This document shows positions 10,601-20,460 of a stretch of 21,116 nucleotides of DNA, piece by piece. The notes under the pieces are model-generated. The model did not search any database. It saw only the letters and a list, made by a program, of their open reading frames with translations, and was not told where the DNA came from. The stretch is from a virus, in IMG/VR virus record IMGVR_UViG_3300000117_000252, positions 1 to 21,116 of that record; one strand, written 5' to 3'. Positions within the stretch are counted from its first letter, which is position 1; the number at the start of each line of letters is the position of its first letter. A program made the translations under genes and the position numbers.

Positions 10601-11053
10601 CTATTCAGTCATGTGGTCGAGCGGGTTGCCATGCACCGTCCCGATCACGTCAGTGTCCTGGAAGATCACAAACAGCGCCGACGTGCCGTTTCGCTTGATC
10701 TCCCACTTATCGCCGCCGTATTGCGGCACGCGCACGTAATCGCCCACAGCGACCCACGCACCCTCCGGCCAGTCATCCATGGTCTTCCGGTCCTTGTAGG
10801 CGACCGGGCCCATGTGGACGATCTTGCCGAGTTGAGCCCGCCACTTATCCAGTTCCTGGGTTTCGTCCGGCTTGAAAATGCCGCCCGATGTCTGCGCTTT
10901 CGGCAGGGCGAGTTGCACGAGAACGCGATCGCCGAACACGGTCACGCCGGGGTCGATATCGGGGAAATGCTCTTTGAGCACGGCCTCCGACACCTTCTTG
11001 CCTCCGCCCAGGCGGACGCCTCGCATTTTCCTAGAAGTTGTCGCGTCGCTCAT
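10601..11053 (-). CDS. GroES-like co-chaperonin (phage Cpn10 homologue)
   Basis: A 150-residue protein. Residues 36-118 match the GroES fold: VTVFGDRVLVQLALPK (38-52), the mobile-loop region AQTSGGIFKPDETQELDKWR (53-72), LGKIVHMGPVAY (75-86), WPEGAWVAVGDYVRVPQYGG (95-114), then KWEI and a final strand SALFVIFQDTDVIGTV. GroES itself is about 97 residues; the extra residues here are an N-terminal extension (1-35, basic then helical) and a short C-terminal tail. In T4, gp31 replaces GroES so that GroEL can fold the large capsid protein; a similar job is inferred here because the gene lies among head genes. The start at 11053 has GGAG ten bases in front; 11086 would add 11 residues from inside the neighbouring gene and is less likely. 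Confidence 0.75.
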   Translation of the reverse strand: MSDATTSRKMRGVRLGGGKKVSEAVLKEHFPDIDPGVTVFGDRVLVQLALPKAQTSGGIFKPDETQELDKWRAQLGKIVHMGPVAYKDRKTMDDWPEGAWVAVGDYVRVPQYGGDKWEIKRNGTSALFVIFQDTDVIGTVHGNPLDHMTE

Positions 11054-11225
11054 TGTCTTCGTTCTCCAAGTTGTCCATCTGCTCAAGCACCCAATGCAGG
11101 CCCTGGCAGAACCCGACCTTCACTTCGTGATTGTCTCGGTCGTAGCGCCTGTGCAGGCCCTCTTCCCGGTCACGAAGTGCGTCGGCAACCTGGGATCGAA
11201 GAAGATCCAATAGGTCTCTGTTCAA
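11031..11225 (-). CDS. Small charged helical protein, unknown function
   Basis: A 64-residue ORF starting with TTG at 11225, two bases after the portal stop (TAATTTG), and overlapping the start of the GroES-like gene by 23 bases. The sequence is one or two charged helices (LLDLLRSQVADALRDREEGL, HEVKVGFCQGLHWVLEQMDN, LENEDNERRDN). A GGGGA lies about six bases in front of the TTG. The tight fit between two firm genes and the absence of a better frame support it, but the rare start codon and short length leave doubt. No function is assigned. Confidence 0.5.
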   Translation of the reverse strand: MNRDLLDLLRSQVADALRDREEGLHRRYDRDNHEVKVGFCQGLHWVLEQMDNLENEDNERRDNF

Positions 11226-14096: not shown

Positions 14097-17000
14097 GGCC
14101 TCGTTCCTTTATGAGCTTGTCCAGGGCTTCGCGATCAACTCCCGGCATCTCATAGAATGCCCTGTCAGCCTGACTGATCTTGAACCCCTTCGGGACAACT
14201 CCGAACTTGGGCTTGGATCTGTCCTTGTCGCTCCTAATATCCGAGATCATCTTTTTGAAATCAACCGGGTCGAAATAATACGGCGTCCCGTCAGATGTTT
14301 TGTATTTGTAAACCCCGCGACGTCCCGGCGGCCTCAGGTATTCAGCGCCGTATTCGTATTGATGGAAGCGCCCCTCCCTGGATGGCACGTCGGCTTCAGG
14401 CGCGTTTTTCCCGGCGATTTTATTCAGCATCACATCCAGTGATCCGTGGCCGACCTCTTGGTTCGAGGCCCCGACCCAACTCTCCCAGTGATAACGACCA
14501 ACCGACCCTTCGCCGGGGCGTCCTAGGCGCTCATACACTCCAGGCAGCACATCATTCAGGCCCCGCTCGATGGCCTCGTATCGGGCCAACCCCTTCGGTC
14601 CAGATAGCTCCGCCTGCAACCCAGATCCTGTTGCTGGCGCACCAGCCGCGTCTGAAAACCCGTCGTATATGTTCTCGCCATTATAGCGCCCGTCATCCCA
14701 TGCATTCCGAATTTGGATCCGATCCATGACCATCATGTCAGGACGGCCTGACACCAACAGCGTGAAACTGAGAACCTTATTGTCGATTCCCGGCTTCTCC
14801 ACCATCGAATAAAACTGTCGGCGGATTTCTGGACCACTCATTTCAGGGTTCGACATCATGTCGTGCAAGCGCGCGAGTTTAGATTCTCCAGACGCTGTCG
14901 GCTCGCTCATTTTCTTGAGAAAATGAGATCCAAAGCTGTTCAGGTTAGACGTGTTTGATCGGCCGGGCACACCCTCAGGAAACACTGTTTTGGCCCAGTT
15001 CAGATAGCTCTCAAGCACCGCGTCATCGAACTCGCCTCTATAGGCTGCGGCTATGTACGGCGCGACCCCCTCTCCCACGGCGTCCAGAAATGCTGCTTCC
15101 TGCGGGAACGCCGACTGCATCCGAGAAAGATAAGACCACAAGAACAATTCACCCGTCACATCTGGCGTAACATTCCCCGCCCGGTACTCGTCACCGAATT
15201 TACGGCTGATCTCCAGGCCCTCGTTTGCCATCTGCTGCTGGGCCGGGGTCAGGGACGCGATCTCGTCCTCCAATGCCTTCGGGTTCTGGAGCTTCTTGAT
15301 CAGATTGAATGGCGGCGCAACCGCATCATCAATTGGAACCTTCTTGGCATCATGCGTTCCGTTCATGCGGCGCTCAAAAATCTTCCAAGCATCCTCGCTA
15401 TAAACCGCGTCGGCGTGATCCATTTCAAGCACCGACAGGCCCTCGGTCTGCCGCTCTGCATTGGCCTGGGTCATGTCCTTAACCAGAAGAGGCTTCTGCG
15501 GAGTGTTAAACGCAATACTGTCTACAGGCACGCGCAGGTGCGGCAGCAGGCCGCCTCGCCGATATTCCGCAAGTTGCTCGTTTGTCATGCCACGCAACTG
15601 GCTGACCTCTCCAGGAATTTTATCTGTCTGATCCGCGATGCCCCGTCCGACAGATCGAGTCGAAGTCTTAGCCCCCTTTGATCGCTTTGGTTTTGGCGTG
15701 CGCGCGATGTCGTCGACGATCGACGGGTTCAGCACGTCGTCGACCAATTTCGCCCCAGACCGCAGTGCGCGCTTCGCACCCTTGGCAACGATACCGGGCG
15801 CGCCCACGGCGGTCATCGCCACCCCGAGGCTGTTGATGTAGTCAGGGTTGGCCAGCCAGTCGTCGCCCATCGCCACGCCGCCAGCGAACGGCGCTATATC
15901 AACCATGCCCAGGTCCATGGGCAGTTCGGATCCAGGGCCGCCAGCAATGGTCTGTGCCGCGTTCCCGGGGAGGCCGGACAGGGCGGACGTCAGCGCTTCT
16001 CGTGCAGTGGCTGGCGCGGCCCTCGCCGTCGGCATAGGCGCGGCACGGACGGACAGATAATTCGGATCGGACGGGGACGGCATGACGGACGCGCGCACGG
16101 CGGCGTCGATGTCGATTGGTAGCTGGGGTGATTTTATATACGACGCGGTTTTTGGCGTGGCGGGCGTCTGCGGCAAATATCTCACGACTGAAGGATCGTC
16201 TGGCCTGCGATACCCGATAGCCTCGCCGCTCTCACCCAGGAACGGCTCCGAAAATTCCTCTGGCATTGGCAGATAGTCTGGCACCCTTCCGCCCTCCGCC
16301 AATCCCCGTCGTGGGGGCTGGTCGCCTTCATCGCCAAGCATCACGCGCGCCGCCGCCAGGGCAGCAGCGGGCGCAATCACCATCCCGCCCAGCATCGGCA
16401 AGTTGACCTTCGACGCCCAACGCGGCATCAGGCCTACCTTCTGATCGGCGAACACCGTGTCCGCGCCGCTGGCCGTCCGGTTGGCTTCGCCATGGGGCCC
16501 GTAATTCACCCAGGAATTTTGGCCCCTGGTCTCCGACGCCATCGCCCCGCGCGCCTCGTCGCTATACATCCCCGCATGCTCCAGGAACGCGCGCTCTTCC
16601 CCAGGCGCTCGAAAAAACGGGTTCCCCGGGGCGAAGTGACCGAACACGTCATGGACCACGCGAAACGCATCGTTTGCCACGGCGTCGCTCTTGTCTCCCA
16701 CGCGGCCCACGCGCTTCAGCAGGGGGTTCCCCAGGGTGTCGAACGCCTCGTCGGACCCATGCCCCAATTCTGTCGGGAACACCCACAGTCGCCCGTTCTC
16801 TACGATGTCCTTGTAGCCCAGCGACGGCGATGCCGCATACGGGTCGGCCATGTCGCTAGTCATGAATTTAACATCCAGCCCTGAATCCTGCAGCGCCCGG
16901 TACTGTTGGATCGTCTCCTCGACCATGGCGTCGTAGGCCCTCTTGACGCGCGGGTCGTCTGGCTTGTGCTGCATGATGTCGAACGCGCGGGCGATCCTCT

Positions 17001-17727
17001 CGGCCTCCCTCTTGTCGAATTTCGGGTACTCCGGGATCTCCTTTCCCGGCGCGCCAAAATTCAACTGCATGTATTTGCTCTTCGCGTCCTGAAGTTGCTT
17101 GATGGGCCGCGCCTCGACAGGGCCCACTCCCGGGATCTTCACCGCTGCGGGCTTCCCTGGGACGGGGACATATTCGCCTGCCTCCGCAGGAACCAGCCCT
17201 GCGGGCGACCCTACATCATACGACGGGTTCGTCAGCCCCTTCACCGCTCGGATCGTCCCGCCTATACTCGGCAGTACCGCGCCGATAACGGGCGCGGCGG
17301 ACAGGTACTCGTAGCCACCCATGATGGCGTCCGACGTCGCCTTGCCGTAATCACCGGCCTCTATCGACCGGCCCATGTCCTGGAAATTCTTGCGGCCTTC
17401 GCGGATTGCAATCGCATCGCCAGACCCCGGCAGGAACGACAGCGGAATCTCCGCGAGCGCGTTTGGGTCGACTTTTGTTCGGTATGGTGTGATTTCCTCG
17501 CCACCACGCGGGATCAGCGGGGCCGACACGCGACCGGCGGGGTCGATTGGTGTCTGGGATGCCTTCCTATACGACGCGATTTTTGGCACGGGCGGTGTCT
17601 GCGGCAAATACTGCACAGTGGAAATATCCGCCGGGTCGCGGTAGCCTATAACGCTCCCGTCGACGCCGAGGAACGGTTCGGTGTACTCCTCTGGCATTGG
17701 CTGATAGTCTGGACGGCTGCGGCCCAT
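14083..17727 (-). CDS. 1214-residue two-module protein (candidate internal/ejected virion protein)
   Basis: The start ATG 17727 has GAGG six bases in front. Residues 7-62 and 484-539 are the same 56-residue head (37 identical positions, no gap), so the protein is two modules joined. Module 1: head; a Gly/Ala-rich hydrophobic region (95-165, LSFLPGSGDAIAIREG, AAPVIGAVLPSIGG); a linker; then a domain at 217-440 with ARAFDIMQHKPDDPRVKRAY, VVHDVFGHFAPGNP, EERAFLEHAGMYSDEARGAM, ETRGQNSWVNYGPHGE and ADQKVGLMPRW. Hydrophobic 443-463 (LPMLGGMVIAPAAALAAARV) closes it. Module 2: head; an analogous hydrophobic region (600-655); linker; then a helical C-terminal domain (715-1214) with FTLLVSGRPDMMVMDRIQIR and GSVGRYHWESWVGASNQEVG. 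The domain at 217-440 recurs in large phage proteins (polyvalent-type or internal virion proteins). Coding between TerL and portal suggests packaging or an ejected cargo role; both are inference. Confidence 0.6.
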   Translation of the reverse strand: MGRSRPDYQPMPEEYTEPFLGVDGSVIGYRDPADISTVQYLPQTPPVPKIASYRKASQTPIDPAGRVSAPLIPRGGEEITPYRTKVDPNALAEIPLSFLPGSGDAIAIREGRKNFQDMGRSIEAGDYGKATSDAIMGGYEYLSAAPVIGAVLPSIGGTIRAVKGLTNPSYDVGSPAGLVPAEAGEYVPVPGKPAAVKIPGVGPVEARPIKQLQDAKSKYMQLNFGAPGKEIPEYPKFDKREAERIARAFDIMQHKPDDPRVKRAYDAMVEETIQQYRALQDSGLDVKFMTSDMADPYAASPSLGYKDIVENGRLWVFPTELGHGSDEAFDTLGNPLLKRVGRVGDKSDAVANDAFRVVHDVFGHFAPGNPFFRAPGEERAFLEHAGMYSDEARGAMASETRGQNSWVNYGPHGEANRTASGADTVFADQKVGLMPRWASKVNLPMLGGMVIAPAAALAAARVMLGDEGDQPPRRGLAEGGRVPDYLPMPEEFSEPFLGESGEAIGYRRPDDPSVVRYLPQTPATPKTASYIKSPQLPIDIDAAVRASVMPSPSDPNYLSVRAAPMPTARAAPATAREALTSALSGLPGNAAQTIAGGPGSELPMDLGMVDIAPFAGGVAMGDDWLANPDYINSLGVAMTAVGAPGIVAKGAKRALRSGAKLVDDVLNPSIVDDIARTPKPKRSKGAKTSTRSVGRGIADQTDKIPGEVSQLRGMTNEQLAEYRRGGLLPHLRVPVDSIAFNTPQKPLLVKDMTQANAERQTEGLSVLEMDHADAVYSEDAWKIFERRMNGTHDAKKVPIDDAVAPPFNLIKKLQNPKALEDEIASLTPAQQQMANEGLEISRKFGDEYRAGNVTPDVTGELFLWSYLSRMQSAFPQEAAFLDAVGEGVAPYIAAAYRGEFDDAVLESYLNWAKTVFPEGVPGRSNTSNLNSFGSHFLKKMSEPTASGESKLARLHDMMSNPEMSGPEIRRQFYSMVEKPGIDNKVLSFTLLVSGRPDMMVMDRIQIRNAWDDGRYNGENIYDGFSDAAGAPATGSGLQAELSGPKGLARYEAIERGLNDVLPGVYERLGRPGEGSVGRYHWESWVGASNQEVGHGSLDVMLNKIAGKNAPEADVPSREGRFHQYEYGAEYLRPPGRRGVYKYKTSDGTPYYFDPVDFKKMISDIRSDKDRSKPKFGVVPKGFKISQADRAFYEMPGVDREALDKLIKERGRARP
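16111..16278 (-). repeat. Second copy of duplicated 56-residue head in the 1214-residue gene
   Basis: Encodes residues 484-539 (DYLPMPEEFSEPFLGESGEA onward). It matches residues 7-62, coded at 17542-17709, without gaps at the protein level (37 of 56 identical by my count), and the DNA is also clearly similar (for example cctctggcattggc and gtctgcggcaaata are shared by both copies). Confidence 0.85.
17542..17709 (-). repeat. First copy of duplicated 56-residue head in the 1214-residue gene
   Basis: Encodes residues 7-62 (DYQPMPEEYTEPFLGVDGSV onward), paired with the copy at 16111-16278. The offset between copies is exactly 477 residues. Confidence 0.85.
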
Positions 17728-17805: not shown

Positions 17806-20460
17806 TCAAGCCGCAGTACGCCGCCGCCTCAATGCCGGGTCGTGGTCGTCCTTCATCGGATCCTTCTTGCCCTCGTCGACGATCAGCCACCCGTCGAGGG
17901 CCATCTGGTGCAGCGCCTGCGTGAACGCGTCGACATAATCGTCGTGCGCGATCGACCCCTCGAATTTGAAACTGCACAATTGCGACACCAGATCGTCGGC
18001 CCAATCCACGACGTGGCCTTTCCGGGTCTCGCTCTCCGGGATCCACACCTTGCCGTTCTCGGCATAGATCGCCATGGCATTCGCCCGGGACGTCTTGCCC
18101 CGCCTGCCCGGCTGATAGCCCTTTACCGGCAACCCCGCGAGGTTCAATTCCTGCTTCACCGCCATGCCGGAGCCCTTGTCCTCGACGAGGACCATGTCCG
18201 CGCGCCGCCCACCGGGCTGAAACGCCTGGGGCCCGTACATCGGGTTCCGCAGATCGTGGATCTCCATGTCCGGCTTCACGGTCGGGCCGTCCTGGCCGAA
18301 CGGATCCTTCAGTTCCCACGACGCCCCGTACTGCATGTTGTATTCCGTCCGCATCCGCTTCCGCAGCGTGGGGTAGGCCATGTGTTCAGACCACGCGTCG
18401 ATGACCATGGCGTTGTAGACCGGCGTGTCCTTCCGGTTATCAATCCAGATCCCGATCGTGACAGCGGCGGTCGGGTCGTTCTTCGTCTCATCGGTGAATG
18501 CCGTATCGTAGGACTGGACGATGAACTCGAAATACGGGAACGGCTTGCCCGCTGGCCACAGCTTGAACCAGTTGCGGTCGAATATGCCGTCCTCGGCGTC
18601 CTTCGGCTCCTGCATGTACAGACCAGCCCAGGCGCGCTTGCCGGAGTTCCGCTTGATACGGTCGAGAGCCTCCAGCGGGTACGCCTCCGGCCACAGCGCC
18701 TCGTCCGGCTTCTTGCCGAGGTATTTCGCCGCCTCTGCGTTCAGGATCGCAGGCATACACAGGACGAACCACTGGTCGCCGCCGTTCTTCTCCTCGTTCA
18801 ACAGGAACGCCGACAGGTCGTCCTCGTGCATGCGGTGATTGATCAGCACGATCTTGCCGCCCGGCTGCAGCCGGTTGTAGACCGTGCCCTGGTACCACTG
18901 CTGGACCTTGCGGCGCTGGGTCGGAGACTCGGCATCCTCCATGGATCCGAACGGGTCATCGATCATGAAAATGTCGGCACCGCGACCGATCGGCCTGCCA
19001 CCCACACCCGTCGCGAAGTAGGTGCCACCCTGATCGGTCTTCCACAGGTTCTTCGCCGTCGTGTCCTCGGCCAGGGTGATCTCCGGGAAGATCTCCTGGT
19101 ACTCTGGGCTCCAGATGATGTTTCGCACCTCGCCGCCGAAATCCTGGGCGAGCGGCATCGTGGCCGAGGCGGAGATGAAATGCAGGGTGGGATCGATGCC
19201 GAGGGCGAAGGCCGGGAACCGGCGTGAGGCGAGTTCGGAATTGTGCGTCGGGATCAGAGATCGGCCAACGAGATACATCCCGTCCTCGGCGTCCACTTGG
19301 ATGCAGTTTCCCATGTGCGGCTCGACGCGGCGAATGTCCGTGATGGCGATCCGGCGACGGTCAGCGAACCTCGTCACCTGTCGCCGGGGTATTTTCGTGT
19401 GCAGCGGGCGGTCCGGCTGGAACCCGACAGTCCAGACGTTTTCCCTTCCCTGAACACCGCCTGACGACAGCGCGGGCGGCTGCATGGTGACGTAGGGCCT
19501 GAAGCCCAAACCGGCACAGAGGTCGTACACACCGTCTCGCAGCGCCTCAGACGTCGTGACGAGGCGACAGCGCCCCGTGGAGGCCTCTACATGGCCGTCA
19601 GTGTCCATCAGTCCCGCGAGCAGGTCCATGCGCTGCTCATCGGACCCCCGCAGGTAGATCTCGGGGATGGCTTTCTCGTAGTAGATGCCGAGAGCCCGCA
19701 GATCTTTGCCGAGACCCTGGCGCGCAAAACTGGTGGTCACCACCCCTGTGTCCGCATGCGTCCACTCTGCCGAAACCGTATACTCCAGCGCCTCAAATTC
19801 TCTTTGCAGAATGTCCGCGTCTTCGCGAGAATTATTCAGCACAGGCTTGCCGCACGACCCATCGCCCAGCCATGCGCCGAGAACGTACGGTTCGACAAAA
19901 TACTCCAGACGTTCATTCTGGATCGGCGCGACAGGCGGGAGCTTGAACCTAGAATTACGCCCCTGCCAGACGCGGCCCTCCATCGCGTGCGTTTCCAGCA
20001 CCTGCTCCTGGTTCGGTCGACGGCCTGTATTGATCACACGCCACTCGTGGTTCTCGTGCGTGCGAATCACTTCACCGTTCGAAAACTCTATCTCGATGTC
20101 CTGCGGGGCTGGGTCAGTAACCGCCAATACCCTTATTGGAGTCCCACTTGGGTGAAACACATAATCACCGGGATGTAGATCCCCGTGATTTTTCCAGCCA
20201 CTTGTGGTCAAGATCGGCGTTTCGACGGCACACTGTTTGCCGTGCCGCGGGCAAGTCAGGATCATCAATCGATCGATCTTGCCCTGGATCACGGACTCCA
20301 GCGTCCGAGCTATCGCCCGATGGTGGATCGCGGTTTTATAGCGAGGAAATGTATACTCAGTGAACGGTATCAGTTTCCGAGACGCCCGGCGGCGTAGATC
20401 CTCCCGGAGTATCGCCTCGGACAGACTGCCCAGGCTCCCCGACCCCTGCTCGCTTGACAT
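17806..20460 (-). CDS. terL: Terminase large subunit (TerL) containing an in-frame class 3 intein
   Basis: The 884-residue precursor would splice to a 552-residue terminase. Extein N-part, residues 1-75: FTEYTFPRYKTAIHHRAIAR and LMILTCPRHGK, ending inside Walker A. The C-part from residue 408 (SELASRRFPAFALG) completes Walker A as RHGKSELAS. Walker B is ADIFMIDDPFGS (495-506); VLINHRMHEDDLS (538-550) is the coupling motif region. The RNase H-like nuclease has acidic residues in QSYDTAFTDE (Asp652), MVLVEDKGSG (Glu760, Asp761) and HDDYVDAFTQAL (Asp841, Asp844). TerL cuts concatemeric DNA and pumps it through the portal, working with TerS. The start at ATG 20460 lies inside the TerS frame (104-base overlap) with AGGGAG ten bases in front; no later start leaves enough N-terminal sequence. 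The tail ends in a basic RRRRTAA. Without splicing the ATPase would be inactive, so the intein should be functional. Confidence 0.93.
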   Translation of the reverse strand: MSSEQGSGSLGSLSEAILREDLRRRASRKLIPFTEYTFPRYKTAIHHRAIARTLESVIQGKIDRLMILTCPRHGKQCAVETPILTTSGWKNHGDLHPGDYVFHPSGTPIRVLAVTDPAPQDIEIEFSNGEVIRTHENHEWRVINTGRRPNQEQVLETHAMEGRVWQGRNSRFKLPPVAPIQNERLEYFVEPYVLGAWLGDGSCGKPVLNNSREDADILQREFEALEYTVSAEWTHADTGVVTTSFARQGLGKDLRALGIYYEKAIPEIYLRGSDEQRMDLLAGLMDTDGHVEASTGRCRLVTTSEALRDGVYDLCAGLGFRPYVTMQPPALSSGGVQGRENVWTVGFQPDRPLHTKIPRRQVTRFADRRRIAITDIRRVEPHMGNCIQVDAEDGMYLVGRSLIPTHNSELASRRFPAFALGIDPTLHFISASATMPLAQDFGGEVRNIIWSPEYQEIFPEITLAEDTTAKNLWKTDQGGTYFATGVGGRPIGRGADIFMIDDPFGSMEDAESPTQRRKVQQWYQGTVYNRLQPGGKIVLINHRMHEDDLSAFLLNEEKNGGDQWFVLCMPAILNAEAAKYLGKKPDEALWPEAYPLEALDRIKRNSGKRAWAGLYMQEPKDAEDGIFDRNWFKLWPAGKPFPYFEFIVQSYDTAFTDETKNDPTAAVTIGIWIDNRKDTPVYNAMVIDAWSEHMAYPTLRKRMRTEYNMQYGASWELKDPFGQDGPTVKPDMEIHDLRNPMYGPQAFQPGGRRADMVLVEDKGSGMAVKQELNLAGLPVKGYQPGRRGKTSRANAMAIYAENGKVWIPESETRKGHVVDWADDLVSQLCSFKFEGSIAHDDYVDAFTQALHQMALDGWLIVDEGKKDPMKDDHDPALRRRRTAA
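19240..20235 (-). mobile_element. Class 3-type intein with LAGLIDADG homing endonuclease, inserted in TerL Walker A
   Basis: A 332-residue intein, residues Gln76 to Asn407. Block A is QCAVETPILTTSG; aligned to the usual numbering (x1-L2-S3-Y4-E5-T6-x7-I8-L9-T10 in Npu DnaE), Gln is position 1. Block B is THENHEW (His138, Trp140). Two homing endonuclease motifs, VLGAWLGDG (193-201) and LLAGLMDTDG (280-289), keep the acidic residues Asp200 and Asp288. Block F is NCIQVDAEDGMYLV, with Cys386 where class 1 inteins have Asp. Block G is PTHN (Thr405, His406, Asn407), followed by Ser408. Trp140, Cys386 and Thr405 form the Trp-Cys-Thr triplet of class 3 inteins, which lack an N-terminal Cys or Ser nucleophile. 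If Cys77 were taken as position 1, an extra Gln would remain in the P-loop. Confidence 0.9.

Follow-up and report, generated by a model that had tools for sequence, protein, structure and literature searches.

TerL inteins of both class 1 and class 3 were surveyed by Kelley et al. in 2016, who described mycobacteriophage inteins of the TerL P-loop and of class 3 and tested some of them for splicing and cutting (PMC5050341). The mycobacteriophage TerL1-a inteins of that survey interrupt TerL after the invariant Lys of the P-loop and before the hydroxyl residue that comes next (PMC5050341). Among solved proteins, the intein described here is closest to class 3 DnaB-1 inteins, those from Mycobacterium smegmatis (Msm DnaBi1, 6bs8 and 6own) and M. 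chimaera (Mch DnaB1, 6rix and 6riy). These are mini-inteins that interrupt a helicase, have no endonuclease and carry Asp at B:7. The Msm DnaB-1 intein has the same GK/S junction (the slash marks the splice point) as the intein studied here (PMC5222942).

The window, which is the whole stretch of 21,116 nucleotides that was analyzed, is part of a virus record of 23,931 bases. Its terL gene contains an insert that is very likely a cis-splicing intein of class 3; it splits the P-loop at Lys75/Ser408 and houses a LAGLIDADG homing endonuclease that is probably active. The intein shares the WCT triplet, the register of block A, the THN ending and the intein fold with the mycobacterial DnaB-1 inteins, but has His at B:7. 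It shares its place between the P-loop Lys and the following hydroxyl residue with the TerL1-a inteins, while the C-terminal nuclease domain of its host protein is of the Terminase_6C type and not the Terminase_1 type. The 884-residue product of the open reading frame is a terminase large subunit, as indicated by matches to PHROG 38 (E=3.7e-90) and Pfam Terminase_6C (E=3e-7). The features are:

17806..20460, minus strand: terL precursor gene, intein included; open reading frame of 884 amino acids
20236..20460, minus strand: N-extein, TerL residues 1-75, ending in ...PRHGK (Walker A Lys); matches the TerL of the intein-free allele L010
19240..20235, minus strand: intein of 332 codons, Gln76-Asn407 (intein Gln1-Asn332); exactly absent from L010 and aligned with about 90 class 3 inteins
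20233..20235, minus strand: Gln76 (CAG), intein residue 1, non-nucleophilic; inside the 996-bp insert, Gln in 25 of 91 relatives
20230..20232, minus strand: Cys77, intein residue 2, an unconserved residue at a hydrophobic position; Cys in 11 of 91 relatives
20047..20049, minus strand: His138, B:10; His in 91 of 91 relatives
20041..20043, minus strand: Trp140 (intein residue 65), B:12 of the WCT triplet by alignment with relatives
19360..19908, minus strand: LAGLIDADG homing endonuclease domain, limits approximate; Pfam LAGLIDADG_3 and a structural match to PI-SceI (E=1.5e-19)
19303..19305, minus strand: Cys386 (intein residue 311), F:4 by alignment, predicted initiating nucleophile and first branch point (role from PMC5222942)
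19246..19248, minus strand: Thr405 (intein residue 330), G:5 of the WCT triplet by alignment with relatives
19240..19242, minus strand: Asn407, the C-terminal residue, preceded by His406; its cyclisation is predicted to release the intein (THN invariant, role from the literature)
17809..19239, minus strand: C-extein, TerL residues 408-884, beginning with Ser+1 of the P-loop GK/S; GK then S or T in 78 of 78 intein-free TerLs

The window also encodes a 161-residue protein (10601-11086, minus strand) that has a match in PF00166, the family of GroES/Cpn10 co-chaperonins (E=5.2e-9). This co-chaperonin is phage-encoded and lies inside the virion gene block.

A search with the C-extein identified a natural empty site in IMGVR_UViG_3300025828_000396 (L010; longer form L220), which encodes an uninterrupted TerL of 552 residues. 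Once the 332 residues are taken out of the window TerL, the two proteins agree at 546 of 552 positions, with 6 differences. The DNA identity is 99.4% over 881 bases of the N flank and 98.3% over 1,554 bases of the C flank, and L010/L220 remain 99.5% identical to the window across a further 3,462 bases downstream. The L010 junction reads GGCACGGTAAA/TCGGAACTC, where AAA runs straight into TCG, and the window junctions read GGCACGGCAAA/CAGTGTGCC...ACGCACAAT/TCCGAACTC. The last base of the insert is not the same as the base just before it, nor is its first base the same as the one that follows it; therefore, the insert cannot slide by even one base and is exactly 996 bp, from Gln to Asn, with the CAG codon of Gln76 inside it. 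The translation is 332 residues without a stop (QCAVETPILTTSGW...YLVGRSLIPTHN) and ends in LIPTHN. The insertion point lies directly after the Walker A Lys and ahead of Ser (RHGK/SELAS), a P-loop site like that of TerL1-a. A second empty TerL (L011) is 88% identical to the window TerL, and each of the 78 intein-free relatives with sequence at the site has GK followed directly by S or T. A DNA pattern scan of viral contigs for the empty site returned L010/L220 and L011/L219 only, and a similar scan for the N-junction of the window intein returned no further copies among the viral contigs, from which the window's own record was possibly excluded.

Relatives of the intein were gathered from IMG/VR, GTDB genomes and isolated phages (about 90), and a 90% identity cut gave a non-redundant set of 91 inteins. 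The triplet is WCT in 86 of these, WST in 3, WCS in 1 and incomplete in 1, and His at B:10 is present in every one. The THN ending is invariant across an alignment of 48 sequences. In the window intein, position 1 is not Cys, Ser or Thr but Gln, as fixed by the empty site, and His138 (B:10), the His406-Asn407 C-terminus and Ser408 at +1 are all present. The Arsp-FB24 class 3 intein, a dead pseudogene, is without Cys F:4 and His B:10 (PMC3196547), whereas the window intein has both. Block A is in register with the solved class 3 inteins, with Thr at position 6. A single-protein phmmer search of the PDB matches the class 3 Msm DnaB intein 6bs8 (E=2.5e-11), and the family profile matches the solved class 3 DnaB-1 inteins with E=2.6e-25. 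The AlphaFold model (pLDDT 94.2, pTM 0.91) matches intein and LAGLIDADG endonuclease folds with the catalytic residues kept. Foldseek matches this model to PI-SceI (E=1.5e-19) and MchDnaB-1 (E=8.6e-8), a similarity at the domain level since the rmsd is large across the whole two-domain chain. Predicted structure and profile matches together indicate a HINT fold related to that of the solved class 3 inteins. Class 3 membership is thus well supported. The first-pass annotation had recognized a class 3 intein in the TerL P-loop, and the near-invariant triplet and the DnaB-1 inteins as closest solved relatives agree with it. Its choice of Gln76 over Cys77 as the start is confirmed by comparison with intein-free TerL homologues, namely the 546/552 empty allele and the GK-S/T junction of the 78, and by the block A register; all of its coordinates and residue numbers were right, including Trp140, Cys386 and Thr405 as B:12, F:4 and G:5.

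Splicing of the window precursor is inferred, and the following steps are taken from class 3 studies (PMC5222942, PMC7664689, PMC4031507). Cys386 would attack the Lys75-Gln76 peptide bond, aided by His138, Thr405 and Trp140, and take the N-extein as a thioester. The N-extein would then be transferred from Cys386 to Ser408 (+1). Cyclisation of Asn407 would release the intein with an N-terminal Gln, and an O-N shift would leave an intact P-loop (RHGKSEL) in a TerL with a predicted length of 552 residues (884 minus 332). Gln1 would play no catalytic role. The ATP site of the unspliced precursor is not expected to work; since the Walker A motif is split until splicing, the precursor should not pump DNA.

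Position 1 is Gln in 25 of the 91 relatives, Leu in 25, Ala in 20, Gly in 6, Glu in 4 and other residues, Arg among them, in the rest. Because similarity to Gln1 inteins guided the sampling, the 27% with Gln cannot be read as the frequency across class 3 inteins as a whole, although position 1 was not part of the search patterns used to collect the relatives. Carriers of Gln1 include inteins of isolated Bacteroides and Porphyromonas phages. The inteins of Bacteroides phages BF702P1 (Glu1) and BK649P1 (Gln1) are 85% identical, yet differ at this position. On a quick SH-aLRT tree the Gln1 label is scattered and needs 16 changes, at least 7 of them forced by well-supported branches. Judging from these alignments, Gln1 is ordinary in the clade and position 1 behaves as catalytically free; the survey shows this position free to vary in TerL class 3 inteins, as expected if it is non-catalytic. 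The description of Gln1 as rare in the first-pass annotation does not hold for this clade. Position 2 is a hydrophobic slot (Leu in 46 of 91, Ile in 15, Cys in 11, Val in 11), which makes Cys77 unlikely as a nucleophile. Thr134 and His135, correctly numbered in the first-pass annotation but taken there for an oddity, are B:6 and B:7; His is at B:7 in 61 of 91 relatives, Cys or Thr at B:6 together with it is the clade norm, and a survey of 1,701 class 3 inteins found no conserved residue at B:7 (PMC7891396).

Other readings of the insert must account for the same residues. If the insert were a class 1 intein with Cys77 as its first residue and N-terminal nucleophile, RHGKQSELAS would remain in the mature protein. 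The presence of a Cys one residue from the true junction speaks for this reading, but the intein-free allele has no such Gln, the 78 intein-free TerLs all read GK and then S or T, and a start at Cys77 moves block A by one so that Thr falls at 5 and not 6. Cys is found at this position in just 11 of 91 relatives, and F:4 is Cys where class 1 inteins usually have Asp (PMC12245125); such an arrangement is extremely improbable. It is very unlikely that Ser+1 attacks the Lys75-Gln76 bond directly, in the manner of class 2, with Cys386 non-catalytic. This route would suit a non-nucleophilic position 1 and the Ser at +1, but it does not explain the conservation of the full WCT triplet, and the known class 2 inteins are KlbA orthologues with Cys+1 (PMC4031507). 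In tested class 3 inteins Ser+1 was unable to start the reaction and mutation of Cys F:4 blocked splicing (PMC5222942).

The insert could also be a degenerate intein that no longer splices, in which case TerL would be broken or the contig would represent a dying allele. The P-loop is indeed split in the unspliced precursor. Against this, the frame is open, all splicing residues and the three alignable endonuclease catalytic residues are intact, and the extein is identical to the intact allele at 546 of 552 residues with no stop; there is little chance that the element is dead. Class 1 membership was rejected, position 1 being Gln by the empty site with Cys at position 2, as was class 2 membership of the KlbA type, the host being TerL with Ser+1 and the WCT triplet being present. 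The preferred reading is a class 3 intein that begins at Gln76 and uses Cys386.

The window intein contains two LAGLIDADG motifs, with the catalytic Asp and the block D Lys present. TerL Asp200, Lys263 and Asp288 align with PI-SceI Asp218, Lys301 and Asp326, and the corresponding intein residues Asp125, Asp213 and Lys188 are kept in 90, 96 and 95 of 96 aligned inteins, respectively. The expectation that automatic tools would start the intein at Cys77 gained no support from Pfam and NCBIfam, which reach the endonuclease domain only; at E up to 10 they gave no splicing-domain border in the window intein. Annotation with these databases finds the endonuclease alone and leaves the borders of splicing unmarked.

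The best match to an isolated-phage intein is 38%. The TerL inteins of Bacteroides phage BK649P1 and Porphyromonas phage005b share the GK/ site, Gln1, Cys F:4, the THN ending and an endonuclease-compatible size with the window intein, but are only 32-34% identical to it and fall in another sub-clade of the tree. The IMG/VR TerL inteins L002, L004, L006 and L116 share the site, Gln1, WCT and the endonuclease at 46-51% identity; they differ in having Leu or Ile at position 2, and their exteins are just 31-36% identical to that of the window. L002, L004 and L116 cluster with the window intein (SH-aLRT 87). A class 3-like TerL intein was also seen in Gordonia phage Gmala1 (L206, 901-1956), with Gln1 and with Ser for Thr at G:5 (VSHN).

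With L002 and L004 the window TerL shares 50-51% identity in the intein and just 31-36% in the exteins, and the exteins nearest to the window TerL (99% and 88%) are without an intein. This discordant divergence points to a horizontally moving element, recently gained in the window TerL or recently lost from L010; loss in L010 would be the alternative to gain in the window. Uninterrupted alleles such as L010 are probably invaded with the help of the endonuclease, and we infer DNA cleavage and homing with the L010 junction as the predicted target. The element itself is ordinary for its known kind and probably mobile; inteins like it, also those with a Gln start, proved to be common in phages. 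Beside terL, the window at about 16278-17683 is diverged from L220, with about 86% identity where alignable and no match elsewhere, and the stretches on either side are 98-99.5% identical to L220; this pattern suggests a local replacement next to terL.

Inteins with Ser at F:4 occur at the same TerL P-loop site in L140, L150 and L151 of the aligned set, and in L222-L224 from a further scan:

L140, 1157-2164: Ser F:4 intein
L150, 224-1231: Ser F:4 intein
L151, 2986-3975: Ser F:4 intein
L222, L223 and L224, 2998-4002: Ser F:4 intein

Among these six IMG/VR contigs there are four different sequences, which share roughly 61-82% identity with L150. They keep Trp B:12 and Thr G:5 in a W-S-T triplet, the F motif is PGNSISV or PGHSISV, the TerL frames are intact and residue +1 is Thr. 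Position 1 is Ser, Leu, Leu and Gln in L140, L150, L151 and L222-L224, respectively. The F:4 codon is TCA or TCT throughout, and since the contigs are independent, sequencing error at F:4 is unlikely. Nei-Gojobori estimates give dN of 0.12-0.36 against dS of 0.85 or more, with similar values for the splicing domain alone, which indicates purifying selection on the sub-clade. The terminase of L140 (944-4411) carries a second insert after RIVIVM, which is class 1-like (CLTGDTPIL...FIADGMVVHN); this single protein appears to hold inteins of two classes. A C-terminal motif similar to that of the second insert, also class 1-like, was seen in L114.

Cys F:4 has been stated to be present in all class 3 inteins (PMC4031507), its mutation blocks class 3 splicing (PMC5222942), and the only class 3 intein known to lack it is a dead variant with Gly (PMC3196547). 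The survey of 1,701 inteins required Cys at F:4, so Ser F:4 forms were invisible to it (PMC7891396). No report of a class 3 intein with a serine nucleophile came up in a literature search. We see an even chance that this sub-clade would splice either through an oxygen ester, with Ser F:4 as the class 3 nucleophile, or by direct attack of Thr+1. The sub-clade is a lead, and its mechanism a candidate only.

The near-identical occupied and empty alleles make the splice borders and the target-site sequence unambiguous; therefore, L010 and the window form a pair well suited to clean tests of class 3 splicing and homing. The Ser F:4 sub-clade is more surprising than the window intein itself and is the part likeliest to change beliefs about class 3 inteins. 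If true, either of its candidate routes would stand as a naturally occurring exception to the published Cys F:4 rule.
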